From Actinostola sp. cb2023 (lineage: Eukaryota > Cnidaria > Anthozoa > Actiniaria > Actinostolidae), in contig JAUJYZ010000974.1 in assembly GCA_033675265.1 (NCBI GenBank), forward strand, positions 1,120,001-1,184,000: a stretch of 64,000 nt of DNA. The letters are read 5' to 3'. Below are positions 18,229 to 55,180 of this stretch, piece by piece. Position numbers and translations under genes: made by a program. Position 1 is the stretch's first letter. Each line of letters starts with the position of its first letter. A model generated the notes under the pieces. The model saw only the letters and a program-made list of their open reading frames with translations. It was not told the DNA's origin and made no database searches.

Positions 18229-21956
<3,728 letters not shown>

Positions 21957-22209: not shown

Positions 22210-25200
22210 ATGGGAGATGTATACGCACAATCAGTAAGTATTTTACCACTATTTTTGAATATATTCTTCGCGTGAAAGTTTTTTTTTGTTGATGAGCAGT
22301 GCAAAGTTCGAATATCGAACTGTGAGATTTTGACAAAGAACGGCCGTGTGTTTTTCTTTGATGCCTTTATTTTACATCTTGCGTGACTTTGTGTGGAAAA
22401 ATCTTCAGTGGTCAAAGTCCTTGTTGTAGCGTTTACTTGTTACCATTTCAAGCTGTGACCTCTGCAGAAAAATTAATGTTCAACTGAAGTACAGAAATTC
22501 TATTTTAAATCGTAAAGATTTTCGACCAAATTTTCGACTAAACTCGATATGACATTTTCGTGACATTGTCAGCGCCGGCCGACAATGAAGCATTACGTGT
22601 ATTCCAAAAATATATTTCATTTGATAACAATATGTTTTAGGTTTTTGTGTGGCTCTTGTGTCTTTATTCCTTGATCTTTATGTTAAAGCCTGGAGGTCAC
22701 AACATACTGATGTTTGCAATAACAGATGTTTGAACAGCACCTGGATACATTTATGACTAAAAGTGTGATCTATGTGTTATACCAGCTCACAATTACTTTA
22801 TTATTAATGCTACATCTTATATATAAGTGGATGTAGAAAAACACTTGGTGCTGTACACATTCTACTTACATTGTTTGTGTACTTGGATGTTAGTTTATAC
22901 TGAGTCAGTTATTTAATAATAACCTTGACTATTGATAAACATATAATTCAAGGTCATATATTGTGTATTATACCATACGTGTCAGTCACTGTCCTTCCTC
23001 TTCATTTGTAAAAATTATCAAAGCCTTTCATGTACCACAACACATATAACTATGCTGTAAACTAAGCATTCCATAACTCTGTTGAGTTATTAAATGACAT
23101 AAATATTATTGATGTTTTTGGAATCAGCTACATGTAGAATAGAGACATCTTGTTCATATTACAGACCCTTTTTACTTTCCCACTATAATGGGTTTCAAAT
23201 AAAGCTACACCAAGGGTGTTAATCAGGAGATTGTAATTCTTGCTGTGTTTTGATTTAACCTTTGTTAGATACAGCGCACTGTTGTCTGCTATCTTATCCG
23301 TAATCAAATTTAAAACCTCATTTCTTTATGAATTTAAATCAAGCTAAATACTGATAAACCAATATGGGTTAGGTAATTGACACTGAAAAGATCTTTCAGG
23401 TGCCATGTTTAATAATTCATCGTGGAATTTACATGATTGTATGAAATTATTGGAAAGTTTCTGAAACTGTAATTTTGCTGACTACTGGATTTTGAAGTTC
23501 ACATGCAATGTGCAGACATGTTACTGGTTACGATATACAAAGAAGCCATGATTGAATGTCTACTGTACTATGTGTTTACACTGTGTATCACTACATAAAC
23601 ATCGATGCATTTATTTCAGAGGCAACTCGATACAACGTATAATACGAATCTAGACTTTTTCATTTCATAATGTCTAAGTACAAGATTTTGGATTGAAGTT
23701 GTGGTACTTTACATTGAAAGAACATATCTGGAGAAAAGTTGTTTGTTAAGCATTTTATTTTCATTCTATTTTGTATGCTACAGCATAGCAATAGGCCTAT
23801 TATGAAAAGACAATGCATTTTATTGTTTTATGTAAAATTAGTACATGATTGATATTCCCTGGGGTCTTACCTTTGTCATAATGTTTTTCTAGCTTCAAGG
23901 GAGGCTGAAGCCACAGGGTGGGTGTTTCTGAAAGGAATCTAAAGGAATTGTAAAATGTTTATAAATGGTATCTATTTTTGAGACTAATTTAAATCGATGT
24001 GTATTTGAAAAAGAGTTGTCTTTGATGCACTACATGATGCTATTGTAATATTTAGGAATGAACAACAAAATGTTAAAATTGCACATTCATCCTTTGCTGA
24101 ACACAGGCAATCTAGGTAGCCTTGCCTTGAATGAACACTGAGGTTTTCTTTGTTCTTTTCTAAAATACATGTATGGTCAGAATGAATTCAGATTAAACAT
24201 TTGATATACACTGTACAGTATTCCTAATTTTCATGCTTCACGGTTGATGTGCATGCTTTTTTTAAACACATGTACATATATATTCATTGCTACTGTCTAT
24301 AATTAAAGGTTAAATTATTCTGAAAATGTTGTGATTTTGCAGGGGTATAGACCTGGCTTACCTCGAGCCTTTGCTACTAATGTTAATAATAACAAGAATA
24401 GTATTTGTATTTGTCGTGTAATAATGATCTTGCTGATATATGTCTACGCAGACACACGTGAAGTGGTCCATTATTTAATTTTAGATTTTTGAATTAACAG
24501 TTGATAATTCTGTTTATGTTAGCAGAGTCAATCAGAAGCAGCTCAGTTACTAGCTACGTTTTGGCCTCGACAAATGCAAGAAATCCGAAGTATGGGCACG
24601 GTAAGCATGGCATGTTCCATGAACTATAGTAGTAACAATGTACTAACATTGCTTTCTGTTTATTGATGGTTGTGATTATATTGTTATTTTTGTTCAATAG
24701 CAAGATTTTAAGATCCAAGAACTCCCTCTTGCGAGAATAAAGAAGATAATGAAGCAAGATGAGGAAGTGAAGGTAGATAATAATTATTGTAAAACATTGA
24801 ATGATATCTCTCTCTCTACAATAATATTTATTTTACTCTGACGAAGGACTAATGTCTGAAATGTCAGTAAATTTAGTGCCTTTTCACACAGTGTCAAAGG
24901 TTCACTCTACACACTTGTAAATTTATATCTCTCATGCTTACTGTATTTGCATTAGTTGTGAATTATACTCATTTGAATTATATGTTCCTTTTATTCACAG
25001 ATGATCAGTGCAGAGGTAAGCTTGATTAATAATCACCACCACCATTGCAGACTGTACAACTCAATAATTCGGTGTAATAATTACAGTGGGGGTCAATATC
25101 AAAATGTTACATCACAAAATACATAAACTATGGATTTTCACTGATAATAGTAACATAATAAATATATTCCTACATGTAAATACCTGGCCCCTGTTGCACG

Positions 25201-26855
25201 AAAGATGAATAGCGCTATCCACTGGATACAAATGTAAGTCCTATCCAATGGATAACATTTATTGGATAACTGCATCAGTTTTATCCATTGGATAAGAGTT
25301 ATCAAGTGGATGTATATAGCGCTATTCACCTTTCGTGCAACCAGGGCCTGATGATAACAAAGCTTACTGTAGCTGATCAGTTTTCCCATGGGATAGATCT
25401 ACTGTTTATAGCAGATCGTAGGCTACATGTATATAACCATTGTGAACTGACACAAGATTCAAGATTCTTAAGTGTAAGGCCGTACAATTATCAAACATCT
25501 GGTGGCAAAAATCACAAAAATGGAATTCGCTCTAACTTTGCATATGGGTAGCCCTTGGTCTGAATATAAACGCTGTGTAGTTTGTTTGGGAAAATATTTA
25601 TTTGTTTTGGAGAAAATCGAAAAAAACTATTTAGGCTTCAGACGCCATGTAATGACTGTCGGCGGAGTGAAAATGCATCAAATTCATTCCATTCGTATAT
25701 CAAAACTAAAAACAACAGAAATATTTCAACACCATCGCTGTATTATATAACTCTTCCTTAGTCTCTAGGCTTAATATCATAAACATTCAGCGAGTTTAAG
25801 AAGTCCAATAAATTCCAAATCAAAGTGCACTATTTGGAAAATCCAACCGGTGGGTCAAAAATAATAGTTTTTTAGTCATGTGCCAGTGATCCAAATTTTA
25901 TAATATTGCAGCTACGTACTAAGAAGATGATATAGTTTTGGAATCTTGAAAGTTTTATTTGGGCAATTGACATTTAGCTTCTGAGAAAACTCTTATTCAC
26001 CACTCGAAAAACATCAAAAACGGTGATTGCGTGACTGCGTGACAATTGGTAAAATAACCGTACAATGTTTCTGTTAACTTCAGAGCCATGTATAACTGTT
26101 AAACAACATATATTTTCTCGTTTCTATGCTTGCAATGCATCGGGATATCTTTGCATGACATATTATGCTGTTATGTGTGCGTTGAATATTTGACATTTGG
26201 ATTCTGAAATACGGTTGAATTATCCAGCCGTCAAAACTGTTCATAACTTGAATATTCCTTTACATTCTTGTTCCTCTACTGTTGTCCTGGCGTAGTCAAT
26301 CGAATAAAACTGAACAAAAAATAAATCGAATCCAATGGAACCCAATCGTTTGATTGTTTTGCGATTGGTTCGGCCATCGAACAGAATCTAACGCCATCCT
26401 CACAATCATTTCGATTAGTTAGATTTTGTTCGGTGAAAATAAAACGCCATAAAAATAAAATATTGATGAGCAGCACTGCAGTCCTAATAAAATCGGAAGA
26501 TTTCTGCCATCTAATAGCCACATAAGCCAAGGCTAAAGAATGCAATGTAAAAAGACTAAAAATCCTGGTACAGTGGAACTCGGTTAATACGGACACCATC
26601 GGGATGAGACGCAGTGTCCTTATTAACCGGGTGTCCATATAAACCGGGTCGGTCAATTTACGTCACTTACATTTTTGGCGGAAACAATGACTGTATGACA
26701 CTGGTGATCTGTATATTTTTAGTGGGGAAACTATAAATGCACGTAATTAGCGATCAGTTTACAAGTTGAACGTGAGAAAGCACAGAACGTGCGTAATTTT
26801 AATTAAAAAGCGATCAATTTACCCATTGTCGTTGTTTTGGGAAAATAAAGTGTCC

Positions 26856-26907
<52 letters not shown>

Positions 26908-29900
26908 GAAAATGGGCATATTGGGACAGGAAAAAATGTCCGTTGTCCGTATTATCCGATCTCCGTATTAAACAGGTATATTTTATAGATATTTGTATGA
27001 GTTTCGGCAGGGACAGAACAACGTGTCCGTAATAACCGGGTGTCCGTATTAATCGGGTGTCCGTAAGGCCGGGGTTCTACTGTACTGAATAAAGATGTGT
27101 ATGTGTGTACGCATGCAATAAATTTAATTTAAACACATTTCAAGGGCAACTCTTAAGGTAATCAGAAACACTATAATAACATCAACAACTGCAAATCAAC
27201 AAGTGCCTTTACAACAGAGAGTTGGGATATTCTTATACGAATATACTGGGTCTACTACGCGGGGGGGGGGGGGGTTGGGGACTCCCATATATAAAGTGGT
27301 TGGGATGCTCGTCGTACCTCACCTTATTATCACTTATTTTCGTGTGTCTTTAATTTCGCGATTTTCACGTTTGAAAAAAACCCGCGAAATTAAAGACTCG
27401 CGAATAATAATTACGACGAAAATTAACGAAGCAAAACTTTGTCACGCAGTGATGTCTTGTATTGAATTGTTACATCATTTACCCAATTCAAAACAATATG
27501 TTTGTATACTGCACCGGATCATAATTTAAAAAAACGTGAAATTAAGTTCCCTTATACACATTTTTTTCTGCAAAATCGCGAAATCAAAGCCTCGTGAAAT
27601 ATGCCTCTGACATGTTCGCGAAATTAAGGACGCGCGAAAATAAGTGATACTAAGGTACCTTTTAGGGGTCCAGATCCGCGATTTGGTACCTCTTAGGGTG
27701 TCACAAATCTAAAAGGACCACAAAAGACTAAGCCGGTACCTTTTAGGGTGATATATTTAAAACGTTAAATATATTTCAAAGATCGCAACGTTTCCGATTA
27801 ATACTGATGAAGGCCATTGATTAATGGCCGAAACGTCTATATAAAAAAAACAGAAGTCAGAGACAAACACTGTATAATCAATAATGTACCTTTTAGGGTG
27901 TTTGTCAGTAAATTTGATACCCGAGACAAGATAATGACAACTGGAATGACAGTTATAGCTTTTGTCACTTTAGAGTTGGTACCTTTTAGGGGTAAAAATT
28001 ATTTGTTGCCACACCCACCTGGACAAGACTCGGATACCTTTTAGGGGTAAATTTCAAAATTTCCGACGAGCATCCCAACCACTTTATATATGGGAGTCCC
28101 ACCGAGACGTTTGCCGGTCTTTAGCAGGTCATCAGTCAACATAAAATGCATTAAAATTGTGTAAAAGAAGACAGTGTGTATTTTGTCCTTTGTCCTAAAC
28201 AGGTTCCTAAAATAGAGGGTGTTGTCCTAGACAGGGTAGGTAATTTAGATTTTTTTGTCCTAAACAGGGTCAGGGTTTCAAACCCTCAGCGGCACCCCTA
28301 TACCCAAACATGGGTCAAGTACCCCCAGGGTGTATATACTGTGTATTTCAATCAATCGCTAGACATCCCGACCCCCACCCCCTTGACCAACATGCTGTTC
28401 AAGGTATTATGCAAATTATATTCACAGTGACCCGAGAACGTGTTTAGAAGATATTTCCAGAAATCTTGCTAACCTATTTCGCTTAACAACAGTAGAGGAA
28501 CAAGAATGTAAAGGAATATTCAAGTTATGAACAGTTTTGACGGCTGGATAATTCAACCGTATTTCAGAATCCAAGTGTCAAATATTCAACGCACACATAA
28601 CAGCATAATATGTCATGCAATGATATCCCGATGCATTGCAAGCATAGAAACGAGAAAATGTATGTTGTTTAACAGTTATACATGGCTCTGAAGTTAACAG
28701 AAACATTGTACGGATATTTTACCAATTGTCACGTGGTCACGCAATCACCGTTTTTGATGTTTTTCGAGTGGTGAATAAAAGAGTTTTCTCAGAAGCAAAA
28801 CGTCAATAATTATTGCCCAAATAAAACTTTCAAGATTCCAAAACTATATCATCTTCTTAGTATGTAGCTGCAATATTATAAAATTTGGATCACTGGCACA
28901 TTTTTGACCCACCGGTTGGATTTTCCAAATAGTGCACTTTGATTTGGAATTTATTGGACTTCTTAAACTCGCTCAATGTTTATGATATTAAGCCTAGAGA
29001 TCAAGGAAGAGTTATACAATACAGCGATGGTGTTGAAATATTTCTGTTAATTTTAGTTTTGATATACGAATGGAATGAATTTGATGCATTTTCACTCCGC
29101 CGACAGTCATTACATGGCGTCTGAAGCCAAAATAGTTTTTTTCGATTTTCTCCAAAACAAATAAATATTTTCCCAAACAAACTACACAGCGTTTATATTC
29201 AGACCAAGGGCTACTCATATGCAAAGTTAGAGCGAATTCCATTTTTGTGATTTTTGCCACCATATTGGGTTTTTGTTTGATAATTGTACGGCCTTACACT
29301 TAAGTAGTTCAATATTTTTAAGTCTTCAGTAAACTTTACAATATGTCAGCAAGTCAGTGCAGTTATTGAAAATATTCTTTATTAGTGTTGTGGAGATTGA
29401 AACCAAATTTGTCACATTTCTTTTTCAATTTGAGAACATTTTCTTTGCTATTTAAAATATAAATATATATTGTGTTGAGCTAAGTGTTCTGACCACGGTT
29501 AATAATAAAACTAGTCGTTTCTAATAGAAAGTGAAGTGCTGCGAGGTGAATTATTTACAGGTTGAATGTAACTGTGCACATTCATTCTACATTTCAGCAA
29601 ATGACATGAGATATTTTAAAGTTCACTTATATGTTTGGGCTTCCTGTGCTTCAAATTGGTGACACGTGACTTCTGTCGAGTGATAAAACATGAATTTATT
29701 TCGCTTGATAATACACATCTTCCTTTACTCATAATACACATCTTCCTTTAATCAAAAGCCAGTCTTAAATATTAGTACATACTACACTGAAGTATATAGG
29801 GTGCTGAATATTATACACAGTAGTATTTTAGTCCAACTGGAAACAGTCAATGTGAGGTAAAATAAAGTATTTGCTGTCATCTTAGAACGAACTTTGACGG

Positions 29901-32900
29901 CTTCTGCTCCATTAAATTACCTTGAACATATACCGGTAGATGAATAAAAATTGAACATATAGATTATAGATGTGTAGACCGATCACGACCAGCTACCGGT
30001 ATTCGTTTGTTTATCAGTTCTAGTACCATTATCAGTCATGGCGAACTTTCGTCATCCCCCGTACACGACTGGTAGACAATCTTGCCAAATATTCACTGTT
30101 TAACATGTTGAGCTTTCGCTTTCTTTTCCGAGTGTAAGTACAATGCAACCAAGGAAAACATATATCACTTTGAGCGGCCATGTTGTTGTTATTACCACTG
30201 CTGATCATAAATACTGCGGGCTCCGAAAATCATCGGGAATGAATGAATGACTAACACAAATCTTGATTTGCAGCCAATATGAAAATCTGCCACAGGAACC
30301 CCATCTCAGCACAGGAAGCCCACCAGATTAGTTTCGCTGCTCGCTTCGCTTGCAGCAAAAATGAACATAAATAAATAAATGAATAAAGCTTTACTTTGTG
30401 TAATATTGTAGGCACCAGTATTGTTTGCCAAAGCAGCACAAATCTTTATCAATGAGCTGTCACTGCGAGCGTGGATTCATACAGAAGACAATAAAAGAAG
30501 AACATTGCAGGTAGGTTATCATATCCATACATTTGTACATGTATATAGAGTAAGCATATGGGTATTTTGTCTGCGCATGCGTGAACACACATTGACCAGT
30601 GACGTCTGGAACCATTTTCCAGCTCGATAGCTCATTTTAAGGATATTTTGTAGGAGATCTACGTGTTTCTAAAGTTTAAACGTCATGAAAATTTACTCAT
30701 TTTTAAAGACGATAAACACTTCTTCCCCTGGGTATATCTTTGGCCGCTGTTATTTCTTTTGATGGCGAGATATTTTATATTGAAATGCGACTGTGTGTTT
30801 GGAGTTGGATGTTCAGCGTCAATTATTTCTACAATCAAGTATTCTACAGCACTGGATTAACGCTTGGTAATTGTGATGCAAGTAAACTTTTAGAATTTTA
30901 ATGAAATGATCTTTCAGGTGAACGCGATTTTGAGCTATGGCCCGGTGAATATGTAGAAGTGTTCAATTTAGGTCGAACTTTAACGAGATATTTCTTGAAA
31001 TTTTTACCGACCCCCAAGTTGGAGATAATTACCACAGCATTCATTCCTTTATATAATTTCAGTTTTTATAGAGAATGGGGCTTCAAAAAATGTATAGCTG
31101 TCAGATTTAATAGATTCTTCTCACCCTATACTCGGTGTAATGGCGGAATTGATGTTTTGTGTTACTTCTCAAAGCCATGGTTCTATCATATCTTCGTCTA
31201 TTTCCTTATTCTAAGTCTTTGAAGGTATAAATGAGAGAACAGACTTTGCAGAAAAATTAGTTGTTAAGAAAATTAAAACTTGTTTCCACTGTTTTGCATT
31301 GCAATAGTTTTGCTTACCATTTACGGGACTCGCGACGAGCAGAAATGTGGACTCCAAGCATTCAAGTCAAATTATCTTTCGATTTCTACCGACCCCCAAG
31401 CTGCTTAATGTTACGGAGGCGAAGATTATTCAATAGTCATTCCATTCATCACAATAAATGACTTTCAAAAAATGCATAGCTCCTGCTATGAATGTTCAAA
31501 GTGCATGTATACGACGAAGACGACAGCCATTGTCAGTTTAGCTTGTCATGTCTGGACCTCCCTCTCCTTGCAATATGCAACTCATAATGCATCGTAAATA
31601 CTGGTTATGACAACTGCAGCATGCCTTCAGCATTGATAAAATAGAATCCATCATTTTAGAGTTGTATATGTTCATATAGACAAGTTAATTAATAAATATT
31701 TGAGATAGAACTTCGCCATCTTGTTTGTTATTCCTGGTATTTAAATTAGCGCGGGATGGCGCGGGATATATGTGCGTGTCAGAGGGTCTTTGTGTTCATG
31801 TTGGCATTTCACGCATGCGCAGACAAAATGCCCATGTGCTTATAGAGTAAAGACACTGTGCAACATAAATAGTGATTTTTCAAAAAAAAAATTATATTGT
31901 TTAATTAGCCAGTGCTATTTGGTACAGTATGTGGTTCTAATTGTGAACACTGTTCAGTTAATGTGTACCCTGGTTACCAGAGGCTATTATTTTATCTCTC
32001 TCGATCAGCCATAGGTGCTCTCGTAGAGTTTAGAGAGAGATAAAATAATAGTCTCTGCTACCCAGGGTACACATTAACTGAACAGTGTTCACAATTAGAA
32101 CCGTTCACAATTAGAACCACATTCTGTACTATTTAGTGCAAAACATTGCACAGTTTTAATAGTGTTTACAAGTGCTCTACATGTATGGATGTTACCTTCC
32201 ATTCGTGAGGGACTTGAGCTGTGAAGAACGAAGAGACAACATAATACCGGCCAGCTCAGAATTTGTATAAACGGCTGGTTAAGACGGTTGAGAGTGCTAG
32301 CAAAATCGAAAAAACATATTTAGATTTATTATTATTAGAATTAGATTTTGGGGAACTACATGTACTTTACGTGAGTTATTTTGACAGCTGAACTTGCCCC
32401 TTGACCTCCGGTGCTTCCTGATTGGTTTGTGATTTGTAATCTCTCGTGGTCAGACTAGTTGTCTCCTTCTCCACATTCTCGACATGGACCAACAAAAAAA
32501 AAATAGTTGTGTTTTCCACCTCGTGCCCGGCCTTAGACCTGGGCACGAGTAATAACTTCTTGAATATTTTGTGTATAGTAACACCCTTTTCCAATTATGG
32601 CGATCTTAAACATGTGTATGTAAATTTGTTACCTCGTCCCAATCAGGGCTTTTCAGAGATAAGAGGAGAAACATACACCTATTCCAAATATCGTTGTCCG
32701 GGCCGAAAGCAACAAGCAAGAAGCTGACGACCGCAAAGGACTTTGGGAATCTCCTAATTAATATATTTATCCGTGGTACTTGAGAAGTTATCCCTACGAG
32801 CGTTGAAAAGCAATCATTTGGAACTATTCAGCCATTCAGCCATTCAGCCACTGTTAAATGTACCCTCGTGAAATAAAGTTTATTATTATTATTATTTGAA

Positions 32901-35900
32901 AATGCATTTGTCAAAATGTCTACGGATGAATAAATAAATAAGGAGAGAGTCCCAATGCCCTTTGCTGTCGTCAGCTTCTTGCTTTAGGCAGGGAAAACAA
33001 TTTTTGGAATAGGTGTATAACATATATAGCACATAGTATTCTTTCATATGGCAGAAGCAATTTCTACTGGGAATGTTTTAGTTTGTCTATCTAAAGGCAT
33101 GAATTCAGTCTATTAATTGTATACATTGATGGGATTAAGATACATGTAGATGTAGTTTAATGTCCACATCATTGCAGTCATATGGCTGAATTACGTTAAA
33201 TGTTACAATATATCAAATATAAAAGGAAAAAAAAACTAGTAATTGTTTAACATTTCAGTTTACAGTACTTGTCACTATTCACCATTCTTTCATTCTGATT
33301 GACAGCGCAATGACATCGCCTGTCACTATTCACCAATACTTTCATTCTGATTGACAGCGCAATGACATTGCCTGTCACTATTCACCAATCTTTCATTCTG
33401 ATTGACAGCGCAATGACATCGCCATGGCAATCACAAAGTTTGATCAGTTTGACTTCTTGATTGACATTGTTCCCAGAGATGAATTAAAGCCACCAAAACG
33501 TCAGGTAACAATAAAAGTACTCATTCCTAGTTGACAACAGTGCAGACAGATCATCATTTCTTCTCATCGTGACACAAGGCGCGTGAGGCCATTGATTTGA
33601 ATAATACTTTAAAATCCATGTAGGAGTAAAGTTCTCACAAAATGTTGTCAAATTTATCCCAAATTGAAGACAAATTATTTTAGAACCTCTGCTTTACATA
33701 CAGTTGAACCCGTATTAAATGATCACCATCAGCAAATTGGCAAGTGGCCACTTTTTGGACTTTATAACTGGCAGGGCTTTCATTAAATTTTAGAGTAGAA
33801 GGTTGTTTCAGAAAAGTAGGCGGCTGTGAGAATGTACATGTATACAGCAAGCAACGACTGGACACCCGATTCCCTGGGAGGGTCTGGAAGCATGCCACCA
33901 ACCCACCTACACCAACCCACCACTACACCAACCCACCTACACCAACCCACCACTACACCAACCCAGCACTACACCAACCCAGCACTACACCAACCCAGCA
34001 CTACACCAACCCAGCACTACACCAACCCACCACTACCCCAACCCACCACTACACCAACCCACCACTACACCAACCCACCTACACCAACCCAGCACTACAC
34101 CAACCCACCACTACACCAACCCACCTACACCAACCCACCACTACACCAACCCACCACTACACCAACCCACCTACACCAACCCACCACTACACCAACCCAC
34201 CACTACAACAACCCACCTACAACAACCCATCACTACACCAACCCACCTACACCAACCCAGCACTACACCAACCCACCACTACACCAACCCACCTATACCA
34301 ACCCACCACTACACCAACCCACCAACCCAGCACTACACCAACCCACCACTACACCAAGCCACCTACACCAACCCATCACTACACCAACCCACCTACACCA
34401 ACCCACCACTACACCAACCCACCACTACACCAACCCACCTACACCAAGCCATCACTACACCAACCCACCTACACCAACCCACCACTACACCAACCCACCA
34501 CTACACCAACCCACCTACACCAACCCACCACTACACCAACCCACCACTACACCAACCCACCACTACACCAACCCATCACTACACCAACCCATCACTACAC
34601 CAACCCACCTACACCAACCCACCACTACACCAACCCACCACTACACCAACCCACCACTACACCAACCCATCACTACACCAACCCATCACTACACCAACCC
34701 ACCACTACACCAACCCACCACTACACCAACCCACCACTACACCATCACTACACCAACCCACCTACACCAACCCACCACTACACCAACCCACCAACCCACC
34801 ACTACACCAAGCCACCTACACCAAGCCACCACTACACCAACCCACCTACACCAACCCAACACTACACCAACCCATCACTACACCAACCCACCACTACACC
34901 AACCCACCACTACCAACCCAGCAGTTGATCACCGGTAGCCACCTTCTATTGAAACCCCTGACAGGGGGTGGCTTCTTAAATGAGGTCTGACTATATACAT
35001 GTACAACTTGATTTGTGTCATATCAGTGAAATAAATCTCTTCCTAAACACAGGAAACCATTCGCCAAACAGTTGTTGCACCTGAGCAGGTTCAGTACTAC
35101 CTACAGTTAGCACAACACCACGCAGTGTCCATGCAACAACAACAACAGGGACAACAATCACAACAAGCACAAGCAATACCTGGACAAGTGCCTCAGCAAC
35201 AACAAGTTGCTGCAGCTGCAGCGGCGGCAGCTGCCAGTGCAACTACTCAAGCACAGGCCATCATTACTAGTGTACCTCAAGGGGTTGCACAGCAGATAGT
35301 TAGTATGACCACGGTGAGTACATGGGACACAGTTAGACCCTTGGGACCAAGCACAGGCCATCATTACTAGTGTACCTCAAGGGGCTGCACAGCAGATACA
35401 GTAGTTAGTATGACCACGGTGAGTACATAGGACACAGTTAGACCCTTGGGACCAAGCACAGGCCATTATTACTAGTGTACCTCAAGGGGTTGCACAGCAG
35501 ATAGTTAGTATGACCACGGTGAGTGCATGGGACACAGTTAGACCCTTGGGACCAAGCACAGGCCATTATTACTAGTGTACCTCAAGGGGTTGCACAACAG
35601 ATAGTTAGTATGACCACGGTGAGTACATGGGATACAGTTAGACCCTTGGGACCAAGCATAGGCCATTATTACTAGTGTACCTCAAGGGGTTAGCAGATAG
35701 TTAGTATGACCACGGTGAGTACATGGGACACAGTTAGACCCTTGGGACCAAGCACAGGCCATCATTACTAGTGTACCTCAAGGGGTTGCACAGCAGATAC
35801 AGTAGTTAGTATGACCACGGTGAATACATGGGACACAGTTAGACCCTTGGGACCAAGCATAGGGTCCTAACAGAAAGTTATAAACATACAGTACAGAGTT

Positions 35901-36583
35901 AAATCCCGAGACGTCTGTGACCGTGTATGGGAAGTTTGACTACTGTATATACATGTCCATACAATACACAAGTCAGAATGAATACAATTCAATGGTGACA
36001 CAATTCAGTGCTGATAGTTTGCTACTATTTTACTCAGAGCCAGCCACAGATGGTGCAGCAAACAGCAACACCAGACCAGGGAGATGTTCAATATACGGTA
36101 AGGAATATACTACGGTAAGGAATAGACTACGGTAAGGAATAGACTACGGTAAGGAATAGACTACGGTAAGGAATAGACTACGGTAAGGAATAGACTACGG
36201 TAAGGAATAGACTACGGTAAGGAATAGACTACGGTAATGAATAGACTACGGTAAGGAATAGACTACGGTAAGGAATATACTACGGTAAGGAATAGACTAC
36301 GGTAAGGAATAGACTACGGTAAGGAATATACTACGGTAAGGAATAGACTACGGTAAGGAATAGACTACGGTAAGGAATAGACTACGGTAAGGAATATACT
36401 ACGGTAAGGAATATACTACGGTAAGGAGACGATTGGCTTTGCGTTTTTCGGTAATTGATTCAGTAACTTTCGTAAAAATAAAAATAAATAATAATCTAAT
36501 GAATTTGATTGAATTTCCAGCAAATCCACTTTAATCCCGCCCAAATGCAATATCTGAGATTGCAGCAGCAGCAACTGCAAATA

Positions 36584-36614
<31 letters not shown>

Positions 36615-37145
36615 AAGTTGTAGTCACCCAACACCAACAAGTTGATCAAACTCAACAACAAGCACAACAAAACACCGCTCAACAACCTACTGAGTTTACC
36701 TTCACGTCAGGAGGACAGGTAAGTCGGTAGTTACCATGGGAACATGTTGCTGGGCAACGACAAGTAAGTCGGTAGTTACCATGGGAACATGTTGCTGGGC
36801 AACGACAGCTTTGGCTTTACACTGCAATTCGCTCACCATTTGATTAGATTTACTCTGTTCCCTAGGTGAAGGTTGTAAAGTAATTTTCTGTGTATTAACC
36901 ACTTTGCACAGATATATCAAATCCAGCAAAACCCGCACTCTGGCACGGCAACAGCAGTCGCTATAGCAACAGCGCCTCAACCGCAACCGCAACCGCAACC
37001 GCAACCGCAGCAGCAACAAGCTTTTATTCAGCAGCAAACTGCAGAGCAGACAACATTACCGACCACCGAAACCCAACAACAACAACAACATCCGCAACAA
37101 CAACAACAACAACAACAACAACAGCAGCAGCAGCAGCAGCAATGA
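22210..37145 (+). CDS. NFYC: Nuclear transcription factor Y subunit gamma
   Basis: Ten exons: 22210-22233, 24526-24600, 24701-24772, 25001-25015, 30412-30510, 33409-33504, 35053-35313, 36038-36097, 36521-36718 and 36912-37145. They total 1134 nt, or 377 aa, with every junction in phase 0. The histone-fold domain spans about residues 41-120 ([66 protein letters not shown]). It pairs with NF-YB, and the dimer recruits NF-YA to bind CCAAT boxes. The C-terminal two thirds are glutamine-rich transactivation sequence with long CAA/CAG runs in exons 9 and 10. Exon 4 is a 15-nt microexon (MISAE). Four exon-intron junctions are tandemly multiplied (see separate entries); only one copy of each keeps the frame. 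The introns are crowded with transposons. No AATAAA precedes the foldback that starts at 37198. Confidence 0.96.
25194..25350. mobile_element. Palindromic MITE (GCACGAAAGATGAATAGCGC)
   Basis: Left GTTGCACGAAAGATGAATAG and right CTATTCACCTTTCGTGCAAC are inverted. The middle holds mirrored ATCCAATGGATAA blocks. It lies in NFYC intron 4, just outside the TTAA foldback. Confidence 0.7.
26571..27082. mobile_element. Pogo/Tigger-like MITE
   Basis: The left CAGTGGAACTCGGTTAATAC and right GGGGTTCTACTG are inverted and flanked by TA on both sides, with further mirrored TACGGACACC blocks near each end. This CAGTRGAAC...GGACACC layout is typical of Tc1/mariner pogo-type elements. An (ATT)n run at 26857-26907 lies inside. 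Confidence 0.7.
26857..26907 (+). repeat. (ATT)n microsatellite
   Basis: About 17 uninterrupted ATT triplets inside the pogo-like MITE. Confidence 0.95.
27260..28105. mobile_element. G-tract foldback with repeated GGTACCTTTTAGGG motif
   Basis: Left GGGGACTCCCATATATAAAG and right CTTTATATATGGGAGTCCCA are inverted over about 40 bp including GGTTGGGATGCTCGTCG. Inside, the motif GGTACCTTTTAGGG or a one-base variant recurs at 27654, 27685, 27735, 27885, 27978 and 28033. A further inverted pair (CACTTATTTTCG at about 27330 and CGAAAATAAGTG at about 27635) suggests another nested MITE. Confidence 0.6.
28185..28330 (+). repeat. Dispersed repeat, second copy
   Basis: GTCCTAAACAGG is repeated with a TTTAGATTTTTTTGTCCTA block and GGGTTTCAAACCCTCAGC, matching 9338-9530 in inverse orientation. 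Confidence 0.45.
31930..32118. mobile_element. Palindromic MITE in NFYC intron 5
   Basis: GGTTCTAATTGTGAACACTG on the left is mirrored by CAGTGTTCACAATTAGAACC on the right. Arms of about 75 bp include mirrored ATTTTATCTCTCTC and GAGAGATAAAAT. The outermost GTTCACAATTAGAACC block is duplicated at the right end. Confidence 0.75.
33254..33421 (+). repeat. Tandem triplication of the NFYC exon 6 splice acceptor
   Basis: A 51-52-bp unit holding CTGTCACTATTCACCA, the pyrimidine-rich tract, TTGACAG and the first bases of the exon occurs three times. The acceptor-exon joins are at 33306, 33358 and 33409. Only 33409 continues into the NFYC frame; the two upstream copies run into an in-frame TGA (TTC TGA; GAT TGA) inside the next copy. 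Confidence 0.9.
33898..34921 (+). repeat. 1-kb minisatellite (CCACCACTACACCAACCCA) in NFYC intron 6
   Basis: About a kilobase built from CACTACACCAACCCA and CCTACACCAACCCA units in irregular order. It yields a spurious 370-codon frame of His/Thr/Pro/Asn repeats. It has no relation to the NFYC frame and no splice context. Confidence 0.95.
35246..35872 (+). repeat. Tandem array of NFYC exon 7 end plus splice donor (6 copies)
   Basis: The last roughly 57 bp of exon 7 and the first roughly 45 bp of the intron form a 96-105-bp unit. ACCACG|GTGAGT donors recur at 35314, 35419, 35519, 35619 and 35715, and a weakened GTGAAT at 35820. Each unit has CACAG or CATAG ahead of the exon-like part. Copies at 35462-35518 and 35562-35618 are intact 57-nt, phase-0 blocks. 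Copies 2, 5 and 6 are broken by small indels. Confidence 0.93.
36091..36427 (+). repeat. 20-fold tandem array of the NFYC exon 8 splice donor (17-bp unit)
   Basis: Units of GGTAAGGAATAGACTAC or GGTAAGGAATATACTAC repeat at an exact 17-bp period. The first GT is the true exon 8 donor at 36098 and the twentieth is at 36421; one copy reads GGTAATG. Use of any later donor brings a frameshift or an in-frame TAA. Confidence 0.95.
36719..36807 (+). repeat. Duplicated segment at the NFYC exon 9 donor
   Basis: AAGTCGGTAGTTACCATGGG and the following ATGTTGCTGGGCAACGACA occur twice in direct succession, starting at the exon 9 donor (36719). The second copy reads CAAGTAAGTCGG, which keeps a donor-like GTAAGT. 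Confidence 0.85.
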
Positions 37146-37197: not shown

Positions 37198-38622
37198 CTA
37201 AATAGTATCGGTTTAATAGAGTACCGAAGTGAGACGTCACGAAAACAATAATTTTCGCTTTATCAACTTTCGATCCCCGAAAGAACATCAAAAGAAGCTT
37301 ACATGCCAAATTTGACGGCAACCGGTTAAATAGGGGAGTAACTAACTGTCGTGGGTCGTGGGTCGTGGGTACCAAGTCGTGGGTCGTGGGTACCATGTCG
37401 TGGGTCGTGGGTACCAAGTCGTGGGTCGTGGGTACCGATTATTATTATTTTGATAAACAGCAAAGGACCATGAACGAAATATGCTCCTAGTATACACTTG
37501 ATCTGTAAAAGATCTAGTCAGTCAAAGTATAATCATGCCGTATAATATACAACGAAAATATGATGATAAAAGGCCGATACTGCGTAGAAAACTTGACATG
37601 ATGCATCCCAAAAGAGTGAACGGATGCAACACAAATCGGAAAACCGTGATCCGCGGAATTGGAACTCACTTGAGCCACTGGTTCGCGTTGGTTGCTTATA
37701 CTATGTTTTGATGCTTCGCCGTGCTGATGGGGGTATCTTCGTTTTTTATAAAGTATACAGATCATTTGATTACGCTTCTTTATTAAAATAACTGGATAAA
37801 ACGAACAGATCAACCAAACAAAGTCTCGCGTTCTGTTTTGAATAACGCACTCGGCTCCGAAGACTTTATTGTAGTATTGTAGTCTTTTCATCTGGACAAC
37901 CTTTATGAGAATGACTGTATAATAATCGATGTTCGGGATAAAAATAATGATATAATTTTTACGTTCCTGAGCCATTGTGACGGAGACGTGCCTCGTAACG
38001 CTACAAAAATATAAATTCCGCGAAATTTGTATATTGTATATTATTATTATTATGTAAATGTCAAAATAAAAACAAATGTAGTCTTTTAATTACATAGCGC
38101 AATTCCTATGCGGATAGTCCGATTTCGAATGTCAAGACAGAACGCGCTTTGTTTCAGTTGATCTGTTCTTTTCCAGTCATTTAAAGAAGCATAATCAGGT
38201 CAGTTTGACTGACTTGATCTTTTACAGATCAAGTGTATACTAGGAGCATATTTCATTCATGGTCCTTTGCTGTTTATCAAAATAATAATAATCGGTATCC
38301 ACGACCCACGACTTGGTACCCACGACCCACGACATGGTACCCACGACCCACGACTTGGTACCCACGACCCACGACATGGTACCCACGACCCACGACAGTT
38401 AGTTACTCCCGTTAAATAGCAGCTGAGATATGGCGAGTTGAATTTATAATTTCCCCCCACAAATCACTGTAATTTCGGCTTGGTTAGCCGCTATTTAACC
38501 GATTGCTGTCAAATTCAGCGTGTAAGCTTCTTTATTGATGTTCTTTCGAAATCGGGGATCGAAAATTGATAAAGCGAAAATATTATTTTTATGACGTCAT
38601 CACTTTGTTACTCTATTAACGG
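37198..38622. mobile_element. 1.4-kb foldback element directly after the NFYC stop
   Basis: The arms run inward from about 37198 and 38622 with mirrored TTTCGCTTTATCAA, AAGAACATCAA, AAGAAGCTTACA and GGTTAAATAG blocks. These are followed by mirrored GTCGTGGGTCGTGGGTACCA repeats (37350-37434 and 38299-38398) and by ATGGTCCTTTGCTGTTTATC. The right arm has about 80 extra bp. The centre (about 37525-38200) encodes nothing recognisable. AATAAA at 38065 may serve as the NFYC polyA signal. Confidence 0.75.
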
Positions 38623-46832: not shown

Positions 46833-47175
46833 AGACTAGCCACATGTATTCACGGCATATCAATCTTCGACAAGGACTGATGTGTACAGACATCACAGGT
46901 GGTCAAGTATCGCATTATAAAGACCAAGAGGAAGAGGGTCGAGCAGAGAACACAAACCCCAATTGTTGTATCAAAATCACCTAGGATGTTGTTTTCAGCT
47001 ACTAGTTTAGCTATACCTTCAAGATACATGTCAATCCCTCACTTTCTCATGATTCTTCAACCCGGGTGTTGTTTTCAGTTCGGGCATGCGCACAATCAAA
47101 ACACTCGAGATGTTCTTACAAAACACTCGAAATGTTCTTACAAAAACAAACGGTAAAAAAAAAGAATATTTTTTT

Positions 47176-47258
47176 CGGTGCAGTGAGGAATCGAACCCGC
47201 GCCCGTGTGCTTCTAACGCGCTGTGTTTCCGTGTGCTTAACAGTGCGAGCCACGGGAC
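47176..47258 (-). ncRNA. tRNA-derived segment (unit 1)
   Basis: The minus strand reads GGTCCCGTGGCTCGCACTG (A-box-like) and, about 45 nt later, GGGTTCGATTCC, a perfect pol III B-box inside a T-arm-like hairpin. The acceptor ends pair poorly and no clean anticodon arm forms, so a working tRNA is unlikely. It is a tRNA-derived SINE head or tRNA pseudogene. Copies lie at 48855-48937, 50535-50617, 52218-52300 and 53950-54032. Confidence 0.5.
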
Positions 47259-48854
47259 CATAGTAATTTGCACAACAATAGACAGTCCATTCACAAGATA
47301 CACTAGGTTATTTTGTCCTCCAAATCAATAAGCGTGCACGATAGCCTAGTGGTGCGGGGCAGTTATTTAGTGGGACTAGGATCCGACTGTTCCCTCCCTC
47401 TTTGATCACTAAGCTGATTGGTGTAATGCCCGGATAGCGCGGATGGGGCCGAAATCTTCATCCTATACGTAACATACGGTGACTCGGCATAATGTCCGGG
47501 AGTATGGTCCTTTTGGGGTAAATTACCGGCATTCATCTCTTTTGAACCTGGGGTCTAGGGTTCTAGTCCCAGCCGTATCAAGTTGTTTTTTTCATTCTTT
47601 CTTTTTTTGTTTTGTTTTTGTTTGTTTGTTTTCTTTTTTGGAATTGTCAGTTACATATTTCTTCTTTTTTTTTGTAACAAAAAGGTAACTGAAAAAAAAA
47701 TTGTCCAGTTAAATAATTTAATTATAAATGATTTTATATTTTGTTTAATAATTTTAATATTTAACGTTGTTTTCTTTTGAGCATTTCAACGATATTCATC
47801 AGACACAAGAATTGAGGAATTTATTATACTGGTGGTGTTCAAAGAGTGCATAGCGTAAATAGCGTAAATCAACTTATCTACTAGAATAAGATAATACAAC
47901 TTATTATACATTTTAGCGTGCCGTATTTTGACTAGATGTATGCAGCCGTACGCGTACTGCACACTAAAATGTATAATCACGTTATAAAAACATGTACCTA
48001 ATAATACAACCCAGTGGAAGACTGCGTTCGAATGGTAACCGCAAAGCATCTACGGATTATTGGGATGGACAGCTCCGCCTTATTGAATGTACTCTAGATC
48101 ATTTCAACTGCTGTGTTGGAGCTTTAACACTGAGAGCACGCCATGTAAATATAGAATCCATAGATGTTTTGCAGTCGCTATTCGCACCCAGTCTCACACT
48201 CATTGAAGGCGAATAAAGTTACCTGGACTACCGTAACGAACTACTTGAACACTGTTTCGCACATGGTTTGTTTCGCTCCACTGCTGTGACATTGATGCGG
48301 ATAATTGACTTCTTTAACATAAAACGATGCTAACAAAAATCTATGATTATATATATTATAATTTATGTGTGAGAACTGTTATTACATGCAAAATGGGTCT
48401 TAGTCAGCAAGACCCCTTTTGACAAGACAAACCCCAATTGTTGTATCAAAATCACCTAGGATGTTGTTTTCAGCTGGAAGTTTAGCTATTCCTTCAAGAT
48501 ACATGTCAATCTCTCACTTTCTCATGATTCTTCAACCAGGGTGTTGTTTTGAGTTCGGGCATGCGCACAATCAAAACACTCGAGATAGTTTTTCTTTGTG
48601 AAACTACCAGAACGCTACTTTGGTTCAGTATTTTTCATTTTTGCATGGGTCGATGTGTTGTCTAGGAGCACATCTCAATATGAGAACTGTTATTACAAAA
48701 TGGGTCTTAGTCAACAAGGCCGTTTTGAGAACACAGACTTCATATATATATTAATAACTATTTTAAATGATTAGACATTATTAAAATAATTATTTTCTTG
48801 AGTATAAAATGTTCTTACAAAAACAAACGGTCAGAAAAAAAGAATTTGTTTTCC

Positions 48855-48937
48855 GGTGCAGCGAGGAATCGAACCCGCGCCCGTGTGCTTCTAACGCGCT
48901 GTGTTTCCGTGTGTTTAACAGTGCGAGCCACGGGACC
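48855..48937 (-). ncRNA. tRNA-derived segment (unit 2)
   Basis: Same A-box-like and B-box arrangement as unit 1, with a few base changes (GTGTTTAAC for GTGCTTAAC on the plus strand). Confidence 0.45.
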
Positions 48938-50534
48938 ATAGTAATTTGCACAACAATAGACAGTCCATTCACAAGATACACTAGGTTATTTTGTCCTCCA
49001 AATCAATAAGCGTGCACGATAGCCTAGTGGTGCGGGGCAGTTATTTAGTGGGACTAGGATCCGACTGTTCCCTCCCTCTTTGATCACTAAGCTGATTGGT
49101 GTAATGCCCGGATAGCGCGGATGGGGCCGAAATCTTCATCCTATACGTAACATACGGTGACTCGGCATAATGTCCGGGAGTATGGTCCTTTTGGGGTAAA
49201 TTACCGGCATTCATCTCTTTTGAACCTGGGGTCTAGGGTTCTAGTCCCAGCCGTATCAAGTTGTTTTTTTCATTCTTTCTTTTTTTGTTTTGTTTTTGTT
49301 TGTTTGTTTTCTTTTTTGGAATTGTCAGTTACATATTTCTTCTTTTTTTTTGTAACAAAAAGGTAACTGAAAAAAAAAATTGTCCAGTTAAATAATTTAA
49401 TTATAAATGATTTTATATTTTGTTTAATAATTTTAATATTTAACGTTGTTTTCTTTTGAGCATTTCAACGATATTCATCAGACACAAGAATTGAGGAATT
49501 TATTATACTGGTGGTGTTCAAAGAGTGCATAGCGTAAATAGCGTAAATCAACTTATCTACTAGAATAAGATAATACAACTTATTATACATTTTAGCGTGC
49601 CGTATTTTGACTAGATGTATGCAGCCGTACGCGTACTGCACACTAAAATGTATAATCACGTTATAAAAACATGTACCTAATAATACAACCCAGTGGAAGA
49701 CTGCGTTCGAATGGTAACCGCAAAGCATCTACGGATTATTGGGATGGACAGCTCCGCCTTAGTGAATGTACTCTAGATCATTTCAACTGCTGTGTTGGAG
49801 CTTTAACACTGAGAGCACGCCATGTAAATATAGAATCCATAGATGTTTTGCAGTCGCTATTCGCACCCAGTCTCACACTCATTGAAGGCGAATAAAGTTA
49901 CCTGGACTACCGTAACGAACTACTTGAACACTGTTTCGCAGTGGTTTGTTTCGCTCCACTGCTGTGACATTGATGCGGATAATTGACTTCTTTAACATAA
50001 AACGATGCTAACAAAAATCTATGATTATATATATTATAATTTATGTGTGAGAACTGTTATTACATGCAAAATGGGTCTTAGTCAGCAAGACCCCTTTTGA
50101 CAAGACAAACCCCAATTGTTGTATCAAAATCACCTAGGATGTTGTTTTCAGCTGGAAGTTTAGCTATTCCTTCAAGATACATGTCAATCTCTCACTTTCT
50201 CATGATTCTTCAACCAGGGTGTTGTTTTGAGTTCGGGCATGCGCACAATCAAAACACTCGAGATAGTTTTTCTTCGTGAAACTACCAGAACGCTACTTTG
50301 GTTCAGTATTTTTCATTTTTGCATGGGTCGATGTGTTGTCTAGGAGCACATCTCAATATGAGAACTGTTATTACAAAATGGGTCTTAGTCAACAAGGCCG
50401 TTTTGAGAACACAGACTTCATATATATATTAATAACTATTTTAAATGATTAGACATTATTAAAATAATTATTTTCTTGAGTATAAAATGTCTTCTTACAA
50501 AAACAAACGGCCAGAAAAAAAGAATTTGTTTTCC

Positions 50535-50617
50535 GGTGCAGCGAGGAATCGAACCCGCGCCCGTGTGCTTCTAACGCGCTGTGTTTCCGTGTGTTTAACA
50601 GTGCGAGCCACGGGACC
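50535..50617 (-). ncRNA. tRNA-derived segment (unit 3)
   Basis: Identical in its core to the unit 2 copy. Confidence 0.45.
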
Positions 50618-52217
50618 ATAGTAATTTGCACAACAATAGACAGTCCATTCACAAGATACACTAGGTTATTTTGTCCTCCAAATCAATAAGCGTGCACGAT
50701 AGCCTAGTGGTGCGGGGCAGTTATTTAGTGGGACTAGGATCCGACTGTTCCCTCCCTCTTTGATCACTAAGCTGATTGGTGTAATGCCCGGATAGCGCGG
50801 ATGGGGCCGAAATCTTCATCCTATACGTAACATACGGTGACTCGGCATAATGTCCGGGAGTATGGTCCTTTTGGGGTAAATTACCGGCATTCATCTCTTT
50901 TGAACCTGGGGTCTAGGGTTCTAGTCCCAGCCGTATCAAGTTGTTTTTTTTCATTCTTTTTTTTTTGTTTTGTTTTTGTTTGTTTGTTTTCTTTTTTGGA
51001 ATTGTCAGTTACATATTTCTTCTTTTTTTTTGTAACAAAAAGGTAACTGAAAAAAAAATTGTCCAGTTAAATAATTTAATTATAAATGATTTTATATTTT
51101 GTTTAATAATTTTAATATTTAACGTTGTTTTCTTTTGAGCATTTCAACGATATTCATCAGACACAAGAATTGAGGAATTTATTATACTGGTGGTGTTCAA
51201 AGAGTGCATAGCGTAAATAGCGTAAATCAACTTATCTACTAGAATAAGATAATACAACTTATTATACATTTTAGCGTGCCGTATTTTGACTAGATGTATG
51301 CAGCCGTACGCGTACTGCACACTAAAATGTATAATCACGTTATAAAAACATGTACCTAATAATACAACCCAGTGGAAGACTGCGTTCGAATGGTAACCGC
51401 AAAGCATCTACGGATTATTGGGATGGACAGCTCCGCCTTATTGAATGTACTCTAGATCATTTCAACTGCTGTGTTCCTGTTGGAGCTTTAACACTGAGAG
51501 CACGCCATGTAAATATAGAATCCATAAATGTTTTGCAGTCGCTATTCGCACCCAGTCTCACACTCATTGAAGGCGAATAAAGTTACCTTGACTACCGTAA
51601 CGAACTACTTGAACACTGTTTCGCAGTGGTTTGTTTCGCTCCACTGCTGTGACATTGATGCGGATAATTGACTTCTTTAACATAAAACGATGCTAACAAA
51701 AATCTATGATTATATATATTATAATTTATGTGTGAGAACTGTTATTACATGCAAAATGGGTCTTAGTCAGCAAGACCCCTTTTGACAAGACAAACCCCAA
51801 TTGTTGTATCAAAATCACCTAGGATGTTGTTTTCAGCTGGAAGTTTAGCTATTCCTTCAAGATACATGTCAATCTCTCACTTTCTCATGATTCTTCAACC
51901 AGGGTGTTGTTTTGAGTTCGGGCATGCGCACAATCAAAACACTCGAGATAGTTTTTCTTTGTGAAACTACCAGAACGCTACTTTGGTTCAGTATTTTTCA
52001 TTTTTGCATGGGTCGATGTGTTGTCTAGGAGCACATCTCAATATGAGAACTGTTATTACAAAATGGGTCTTAGTCAACAAGGCCGTTTTGAGAACACAGA
52101 CTTCATATATATATTAATAACTATTTTAAATGATTAGACATTATTAAAATAATTATTTTCTTGAGTATAAAATGTTCTTACAAAAACAAACGGTCAGAAA
52201 AAAAGAATTTGTTTTCC

Positions 52218-52300
52218 GGTGCAGCGAGGAATCGAACCCGCGCCCGTGTGCTTCTAACGCGCTGTGTTTCCGTGTGTTTAACAGTGCGAGCCACGGGACC
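52218..52300 (-). ncRNA. tRNA-derived segment (unit 4)
   Basis: Identical in its core to the unit 2 copy. Confidence 0.45.
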
Positions 52301-53949
52301 ATAGTAATTTGCACAACAATAGACAGTCCATTCACAAGATACACTAGGTTATTTTGTCCTCCAAATCAATAAGCGTGCACGATAGCCTAGTGGTGCGGGG
52401 CAGTTATTTAGTGGGACTAGGATCCGACTGTTCCCTCCCTCTTTGATCACTAAGCTGATTGGTGTAATGCCCGGATAGCGCGGATGGGGCCGAAATCTTC
52501 ATCCTATACGTAACATACGGTGACTCGGCATAATGTCCGGGAGTATGGTCCTTTTGGGGTAAATTACCGGCATTCATCTCTTTTGAACCTGGGGTCTAGG
52601 GTTCTAGTCCCAGCCGTATCAAGTTGTTTTTTTCATTCTTTCTTTTTTTGTTTTGTTTTTGTTTGTTTGTTTTCTTTTTTGGAATTGTCAGTTACATATT
52701 TCTTCTTTTTTTTTGTAACAAAAAGGTAACTGAAAAAAAAATTGTCCAGTTAAATAATTTAATTATAAATGATTTTATATTTTGTTTAATAATTTTAATA
52801 TTTAACGTTGTTTTCTTTTGAGCATTTCAACGATATTCATCAGACACAAGAATTGAGGAATTTATTATACTGGTGGTGTTCAAAGAGTGCATAGCGTAAA
52901 TAGCGTAAATCAACTTATCTACTAGAATAAGAGTGCAAACCATATGTCCGTGAAATAATACAACTAATTATTATACATTTTAGCGTGCCGTATTTTGACT
53001 AGATAGCGTGCCGTATTTTGACTAGATGTATGCAGCCGTACGCGTACTGCACACTAAAATGTATAATCACGTTATAAAAACATGTACCTAATAATACAAC
53101 CCAGTGGAAGACTGCGTTCGAATGGTAACCGCAAAGCATCTACGGATTATTGGGATGGACAGCTCCGCCTTATTGAATGTACTCTAGATCATTTCAACTG
53201 CTGTGTTCCTGTTGGAGCTTTAACACTGAGAGCACGCCATGTAAATATAGAATCCATAAATGTTTTGCAGTCGCTATTCGCACCCAGTCTCACACTCATT
53301 GAAGGCGAATAAAGTTACCTGGACTACCGTAACGAACTACTTGAACACTGTTTCGCAGTGGTTTGTTTCGCTCCACTGCTGTGACATTGATGCGGATAAT
53401 TGACTTCTTTAACATAAAACGATGCTAACAAAAATCTATGATTATATATATTATAATTTATGTGTGAGAACTGTTATTACATGCAAAATGGGTCTTAGTC
53501 CGCAGCAAGACCCCTTTTGACAAGACAAACCCCAATTGTTGTATCAAAATCACCTAGGATGTTGTTTTCAGCTGGAAGTTTAGCTATTCCTTCAAGATAC
53601 ATGTCAATCTCTCACTTTCTCATGATTCTTCAACCCGGATGTTGTTTTGAGTTCGGGCATGCGCACAATCAAAACACTCGAGATAGTTTTTCTTCGTGAA
53701 ACTACCAGAACGCTACTTTGGTTCAGTATTTTTCATTTTTGCATGGGTCGATGTGTTGTCTAGGAGCACATCTCAATATGAGAACTGTTATTACAAAATG
53801 GGTCTTAGTCAACAAGGCCGTTTTGAGAACACAGACTTCATATATATATTAATAACTATTTTAAATGATTTGACATTATTAAAATAATTATTTTCTTGAG
53901 TATAAAATGTTCTTACAAAAACAAACGCTAAAAAAAGAATTTTTTTCTC

Positions 53950-54032
53950 AGTGCATCGAGGAATCGAACCCGCGCCCATGTGCTTCTAACACGCTGTGTT
54001 TCCGTGTGTTTAACAGTGCGAGCCACGGGACC
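53950..54032 (-). ncRNA. tRNA-derived segment (unit 5)
   Basis: The most diverged copy (ATGTGCTTCTAACACGC on the plus strand), but the B-box is unchanged. Confidence 0.45.
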
Positions 54033-55180
54033 ATAGTAATTTGCACAACAATAGACAGTCCATTCACAAGATACACTAGGTTATTTTGTCCTCCAAATCA
54101 ATAAGCGTGCACGATAGCCTAGTGGTGCGGGGCAGTTATTTAGTGGGACTAGGATCCGACTGTTCCCTCCCTCTTTGATCACTAAGCTGATTGGTGTAAT
54201 GCCCGGATAGCGCGGATGGGGCCGAAATCTTCATCCTATACGTAACATACGGTGACTCGGCATAATGTCCGGGAGTATGGTCCTTTTTGGATAAATTACC
54301 GGCATTCATCTCTTTTGAACCTGAGGGTCTAGGGTTCGAGTCCCAGCCGTATCAAGTTGTTTTTTTCATTCTTTCTTTTTTTGTTTTGTTCTTGTTTGTT
54401 TGTTTTCTTTTTTTGGAATTGTTTACATATTTCTTCTTTTTTTTGTAAAAACAAGGTAACTGAAAAAAATATTGTCCAGTTAAATAATTTAATTATAAAT
54501 GATTTTATATTTTGTTTAATAATTTTAATAGTTAACGTTGCTTTCTTTTGAGCAATAAGATTTAAACGATATAATCATTGCAGATTTTCAATCAAGTCAC
54601 CAATAATTTTAGGAAATTTACCTGTCTTTCAGGATATTTGGTCGAAATTGACGTGCGATCGAGATATGTGCTCGAATTTTGGCGAGAAGTAAAGCTAGTT
54701 GAGTTCGGATCGCTCGAACAGTTTCCTCCCTTATCTCCTTCTTACTCTTTCAGGGGTACTTTCGTGAAAAATGCTCTAATGGCGGTGAAACGCCGTCACA
54801 GCATCGAAAGTAGTAAGAACAACACATTAGTGAAATTTTTTTTTATTATTTACGAAAAATCTTGAAATACGTAGGGATGTTTTAAAGCCACATACATTTA
54901 CTGTAAATATGAAAATTAAACAACGGTCTTCACGGTCTTCACAGATAATTCTTCGTTTGCAACCACGTGGTATTTGGCGAATTACGCTGTCGATTTTAAT
55001 TTATACGGCTGTTCTCAAATTGCAAAATATCATTTCCTTTGCCAAATAAAATAAAAAGTTTATGAGCTTGTAGAGCTATCAAAATAACACCTCTGAGCAA
55101 AATTTTGGAGCACAAGAGCATTTCTTTACCGAGCTATTGGCGAACGAATTTCCAAATATTCCAGTGTGTTTGTATAGCGG

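Follow-up and report, generated by a model that had tools for sequence, protein, structure and literature searches.

How does a gene come to carry tandem arrays at four of its splice junctions? This question is raised by the NFYC gene of Actinostola sp. cb2023 (Cnidaria, Actiniaria), which lies in a 64,000-nucleotide stretch of contig JAUJYZ010000974.1 (positions 1,120,001 to 1,184,000 of the forward strand; assembly GCA_033675265.1, 424 Mb in 1594 contigs). The stretch is referred to here as the window and its contig as C274. An initial annotation of the window had proposed that the exon 6 acceptor and the donors of exons 7, 8 and 9 are tandemly multiplied, being present in three, six, 20 and two copies, respectively. 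This is borne out by Tandem Repeats Finder (TRF) in combination with direct reading of the sequence, with the period at exon 9 corrected from about 43 to 45 bp. The arrays are probably nearly neutral minisatellites, derived from short tandem duplications that spanned a junction and were tolerated with the exon-proximal splice site intact.

Tandem arrays at four NFYC junctions

The junction arrays, together with a large minisatellite in intron 6, are located in the window as follows:

33270..33423, + strand: exon 6 acceptor array, 3 copies of 51-52 bp (TRF and reading)
35248..35863, + strand: exon 7 donor array, 6 copies of about 100 bp (TRF and reading)
36094..36427, + strand: exon 8 donor array, 20 copies of 17 bp (TRF and reading)
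36714..36807, + strand: exon 9 donor array, 2 copies of 45 bp (TRF and reading)
33896..34920, + strand: intron 6 minisatellite, 66 copies of 16 bp

A tandem-repeat unit spans four of the 18 NFYC junctions, with unit lengths of 17, 45, 52 and 100 bp that fall inside the 10-160 bp of the published amphioxus "mirage" cases, whereas the intron 6 minisatellite touches no junction and is a counter-example within the same gene. The arrays do not begin or end exactly at the exon edges, as had been claimed, but extend 15, 66, 4 and 5 nt into exons 6, 7, 8 and 9, respectively.

The AG is identical in all three copies of the exon 6 array, which place decoy exon starts at 33306 and 33358 upstream of the true start at 33409. 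The true donor of exon 7 follows position 35313, and decoys follow 35418, 35518, 35618, 35714 and 35819; these donors read GTGAGT in five cases and GTGAAT in the final one. Furthermore, the copies of this array have changes in common, namely a 5-nt insert in copies 2 and 6 and a T in copies 3-5, which speaks for turnover of the array. At exon 8, the true donor after 36097 is succeeded by 19 decoys in an exact 17-nt step up to 36420 (GTAAGG in 19 of the donors and GTAATG in one), while at exon 9 the true donor after 36718 has a single decoy after 36763.

The GT or AG is kept in all 27 extra copies, and a premature stop follows every one of these 27 sites. The earlier statement that a single copy per array keeps the NFYC frame is thereby upheld, although a stop after a decoy is usually the default expectation for such extensions. 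When scored with a simple donor matrix, four of the five exon 7 decoys equal the true donor (10.0), as do 18 of the 19 exon 8 decoys (9.1), and the exon 9 decoy is weaker than its true donor (9.5 versus 12.7); the donor decoys scoring below the true site are the three at 35819, 36233 and 36763. The coding sequence is continuous with the exon-proximal copy at each array. It is presumably this exon-proximal site that is used, since the Nematostella NFYC protein passes all four array junctions without an insert.

These properties bear on the proposal of the initial annotation that the decoys tune NFYC splicing or NFYC level. Use of a downstream donor or an upstream acceptor would introduce a premature stop, and the length of an array would set the unproductive fraction that is removed by nonsense-mediated decay. 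The stops after all 27 decoys and the scores shared with the true donors of exons 7 and 8 are as such tuning would have them, and downstream units of a donor minisatellite in human IFI6 are reported to be used (PMC4526556). However, the stops are expected by default, and the amphioxus cases are reported to occur without interference with regular splicing (PMC3087553).

The NFYC gene model

The exon numbering follows a model of 10 coding exons with GT-AG introns, every one of which is in phase 0:

22210..37145, + strand: NFYC gene
22210-22233, + strand: coding exon 1 (tblastn with Nematostella NFYC)
24523-24600, + strand: coding exon 2 (tblastn with Nematostella NFYC)
24701-24772, + strand: coding exon 3 (tblastn with Nematostella NFYC)
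25001-25015, + strand: coding exon 4, 15 nt (frame, GT-AG and protein alignment)
30412-30510, + strand: coding exon 5 (tblastn with Nematostella NFYC)
33409-33504, + strand: coding exon 6 (tblastn with Nematostella NFYC)
35053-35313, + strand: coding exon 7 (tblastn with Nematostella NFYC)
36038-36097, + strand: coding exon 8 (frame, GT-AG and protein alignment)
36521-36718, + strand: coding exon 9 (tblastn with Nematostella NFYC)
36912-37145, + strand: coding exon 10 (tblastn with Nematostella NFYC), stop TGA at 37143-37145

The spliced model yields a predicted protein of 378 residues with an NF-Y/histone fold (Pfam), whose closest protein-database match among the best 120 of 1203 is Nematostella NFYC (74% identity over 94%). 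This match speaks for an anthozoan source and against amphioxus, which the mirage literature had suggested. A 447-bp NFYC probe finds a single place in the assembly. One database protein (P0007) was considered as a case of a repeat-derived insertion and rejected, being a different NFYC with an internal histone-fold duplication away from the array junctions.

Two inverted repeats accompany the gene. Intron 4 contains a long one (window 25497-26285 / 28486-29265) with three arm pairs of 366, 303 and 90 nt that are 97-99% complementary. The other lies just 3' of the gene (window 37355-37526 / 38204-38375), with 172-nt arms that are 98% complementary and separated by 677 nt, and contains 21-bp minisatellites.

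Junction arrays in other genes

CCT and kinesin genes were surveyed in this genome by way of matches selected for compactness (44 of 55 for CCT and 46 of 124 for kinesin). The survey covers 171 junctions, which were placed by a simple splice-site matrix rather than by cDNA; some are surely misplaced. Junction arrays are found at three of the 84 donors and at none of the 87 acceptors:

C335 (L023): CCT gene donor array, 6 copies of 91 bp, GTAAGT in each copy; 5 of 5 decoys lead to a stop
C746 (L030): CCT gene donor array, 2 copies of 125 bp; 1 of 1 decoy leads to a stop
C1450 (L055): kinesin gene donor array, 2 copies of 98 bp; 1 of 1 decoy leads to a stop

The decoys of the C335 array have common changes that are missing from the exon copy. 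An earlier and stricter pass over the CCT genes (74 junctions) gave the same two CCT arrays after inspection. Three flagged acceptors (L032, L045 and L050) were dropped, the true AG lying outside the array, and are kept in the denominator. Two candidates of the first pass, an acceptor (L041) and a donor (L025), owed their high score to extension only: the core matches at 4 of 18 bases, and the junction is uncopied.

At the rate of this survey, which is a rough one, a few per cent of donors would bear a junction array. The arrays are not an NFYC device, because a like structure occurs in three unrelated genes. Equally frequent junction arrays in most genes would, according to the initial annotation, refute its proposal, and this test applies in part: arrays are present beyond NFYC but not at equal frequency. 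Together with the four in NFYC, seven junction arrays are known from four genes, all of them one-sided in the same way and six of them located at donors.

This recurrence also bears on the quality of the assembly, in which repeats might have been expanded or misjoined. Assemblies are error-prone at tandem arrays, and the amphioxus draft contained an aberrant assembly of the BflGb6 mirage (PMC3087553). However, the copies differ among themselves in the exon 6, 7 and 8 arrays, the arrays have sharp borders and leave the coding sequence intact, and a like anatomy recurs in all seven arrays. An assembly artefact is extremely unlikely as the source of the arrays, while true copy numbers may differ from those assembled.

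Copy-number change in a CCT gene

The 3' part of the CCT gene on C746 occurs a second time on contig C364. The donor array comprises two copies on C746 and at least nine on C364, where it reaches the end of the stretch examined. Two other arrays nearby differ in length as well, so that three separate arrays distinguish the two gene copies (L030 versus L041, L062 and L063). The three exons compared are all open, with 102/102, 140/141 and 125/132 bases identical; the last of these adjoins the array, and its divergence is about equal to that of the introns. Flanking pieces, which are partly exonic, are about 86-94% identical and intronic arrays less so, and the similarity ends upstream. The C364 copy could be an allele with a rearrangement or a recent partial duplicate. 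In either case, array length changed without loss of the open coding sequence, two of the three exons remaining almost unchanged, and the difference of two versus at least nine copies looks like copy-number drift.

This difference argues against decoy tuning, as does the equal structure of the arrays in CCT and kinesin genes that have no known common regulation. Tuning of NFYC is not supported by these comparisons and appears distinctly improbable. A more far-reaching version would be that a few per cent of donors genome-wide carry hypervariable, donor-biased arrays, that decoy number differs among individuals in many genes, and that the output of NFYC, with 27 decoys at 4/18 junctions, follows array length through drift or tuning; this has to be considered a long shot.

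Placement of the arrays and the case for hotspots

Whether the arrays fall on NFYC junctions more often than by chance depends on the choice of null. All permutations concern the five large NFYC arrays and are post hoc, on a gene picked after the fact. With array footprints placed at random in the whole gene, at least four of the five cross a junction in 0.6% of 20000 permutations, and in 0 of 3000 when exon content is limited to 66 nt per array. When the footprints are confined to the exon-dense 3' part, this happens in 14.6% of 5000 permutations, or in 7.4% of 2000 with the exon limit.

The genome is rich in minisatellites. In 264 kb, consisting of the window and 20 stretches of C274 and including about 23 kb of contig-end satellite, 98 arrays with a period of at least 10 were found, corresponding to 3.7 per 10 kb and 24% of the bases. 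In a scan of 234 kb (the window and 17 stretches, with three satellite stretches excluded), minisatellites are most densely packed in the 3' half of NFYC: of 648 overlapping windows of 4 kb, 15 touch five or six arrays, and all 15 lie in this half. NFYC is a local extreme, located in an unusually dense patch. An ab initio search of the same 234 kb for junction arrays gave 126 arrays and 35 candidate sites, five of which are those of NFYC; 15 of the other 30 were read and show no convincing exon edge.

Several observations weigh against the nearly neutral explanation. When only the founding units are permuted, four of them lie across junctions in 0 of 20000 permutations in the whole gene and in 0.02% of 5000 in the 3' part. 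The frequency of 4/18 junctions in NFYC exceeds the 3/171 of the survey (Fisher p 0.0017, post hoc), about 0.3 being expected. Donors may be favoured over acceptors (6/93 versus 1/96 including NFYC, p 0.06; 3/84 versus 0/87 without it, p 0.12), and pure neutrality would need a difference in tolerance to explain this. In addition, the other genes surveyed in the window and on C274 have no array at any of their 22 junctions. These belong to 13 coding segments, of which nine match Pfam above the cut-off and two below it and two were assigned to CSN5 by eye; Pfam had been applied to 20 high-scoring coding segments, nine of which matched, and the 11 unmatched ones were unused. Among 98 arrays of period 12-250, four have a unit with a strong donor, three of them those of NFYC, which is no excess over the 2.7 expected from random non-array sequence; minisatellites as a class have no preference for donors in this sample. 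Neither these arrays nor the 22 junctions point to a generally high rate of junction arrays.

Part of this evidence agrees with the idea that junctions, or a transcribed exon-dense region, are true hotspots at which short tandem duplications arise more often than elsewhere, as they might through microhomology or R-loops. The permutations of founding units, the concentration of all array-rich 4-kb windows in the 3' half of NFYC and the frequency of 4/18 versus 3/171 speak for such hotspots. On the other hand, the gene was picked after the fact, the footprints in its 3' part are not significantly placed, donor-bearing units are not in excess among the sampled arrays, and the other genes of the window and contig have no junction arrays. 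The slippage hotspots of the initial annotation come near the best explanation in that NFYC is enriched and lies in the densest patch, but hotspots proper are unlikely. The binomial chance of four or more arrays at 18 junctions is 0.00024 at the survey rate. Multi-exon genes in such a genome number some ten thousand, to an order of magnitude. At that chance, ten thousand genes would yield a few cases like NFYC, and more if array density is patchy.

A probable, nearly neutral origin

The junction arrays are probably better described as nearly neutral minisatellites, for which the following origin can be envisaged. A short tandem duplication would have happened to span an exon-intron edge. When it comprises the exon end, the donor and the intron start, the first copy would stay intact; at an acceptor, this would be the last copy. 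Such a duplication would be nearly neutral because an intact junction remains beside the exon and the spare lies in the intron, provided that the exon-proximal site is used. We infer that this is the case in this animal. Duplications inside exons would mostly be removed by selection. The intron side would then expand through slippage or unequal exchange, and the array would grow and shrink like any minisatellite. Spare donors would be passed over, presumably through exon definition, and rare misspliced RNA would probably be cleared by nonsense-mediated decay. Spare upstream acceptors, which the spliceosome would meet first, would be less tolerated, and this would fit the possible donor bias.

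Other repeats in the window and contig

Units of 52 bp form the contig-end satellite of C274 (L016:7287-10000, L017 and L018; about 1,211,300-1,234,000). In the window, a unit of about 1680 bp is repeated head to tail in five copies (47125-54214). These are mostly more than 90% alike where compared, in stretches of 300 nt, and three of the copies share an identical 87-residue frame. A CTGA-rich 23-bp array with several open frames (19715-20045) is located in an intron of a minus-strand gene with a JAB domain (Pfam), which we take to be CSN5-like.

Comparison with known systems

The NFYC arrays add a cnidarian to the lancelets in which minisatellites across splice junctions are on record, with a rough rate (3/84 donors and 0/87 acceptors). 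Such arrays are also natural experiments on how the spliceosome chooses among nearly identical donors, as many as 20 of them at a spacing of 17 nt, and on the gain of introns via duplicated splice sites.

Human IFI6 (6-16) has a minisatellite with a short unit. Its units are reported to provide several donors at an exon end, two downstream units being used and three mRNAs resulting (PMC4526556). Of the NFYC arrays, that of exon 8 with its 20 copies of 17 bp comes nearest to it. In contrast to the donors used in IFI6, each NFYC decoy would give a stop.

In lancelet PGBD5, repeats of 60 and 108 bp lie over splice sites, and the amphioxus mirages have been compared with them (PMC3902484). As in NFYC, the repeats occur at 5' and 3' splice sites of one gene; they differ in being described as imperfect and in belonging to another phylum. 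A further paper (PMC3039753) was dropped as a related case, its subject not being splice-site arrays. A search by title and start of abstract found no report of cnidarian junction arrays, which is not proof of their absence from print. As far as the literature searched shows, the NFYC arrays would be mirage-type minisatellites in a new phylum.

The mirages themselves are minisatellite-like repeats over exon-intron boundaries in amphioxus Adh3, the globins BflGb6 and BflGb9 and other genes, located on either side of an exon, with units of 10-160 bp and with splice signals in many copies (PMC3087553). Splicing is described there as undisturbed, and BflGb6 haplotypes have six versus three copies (PMC3087553). 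The NFYC repeats resemble them in spanning boundaries, in unit length and in repeating the splice signals, and differ in being cnidarian and in affecting four junctions of one gene.

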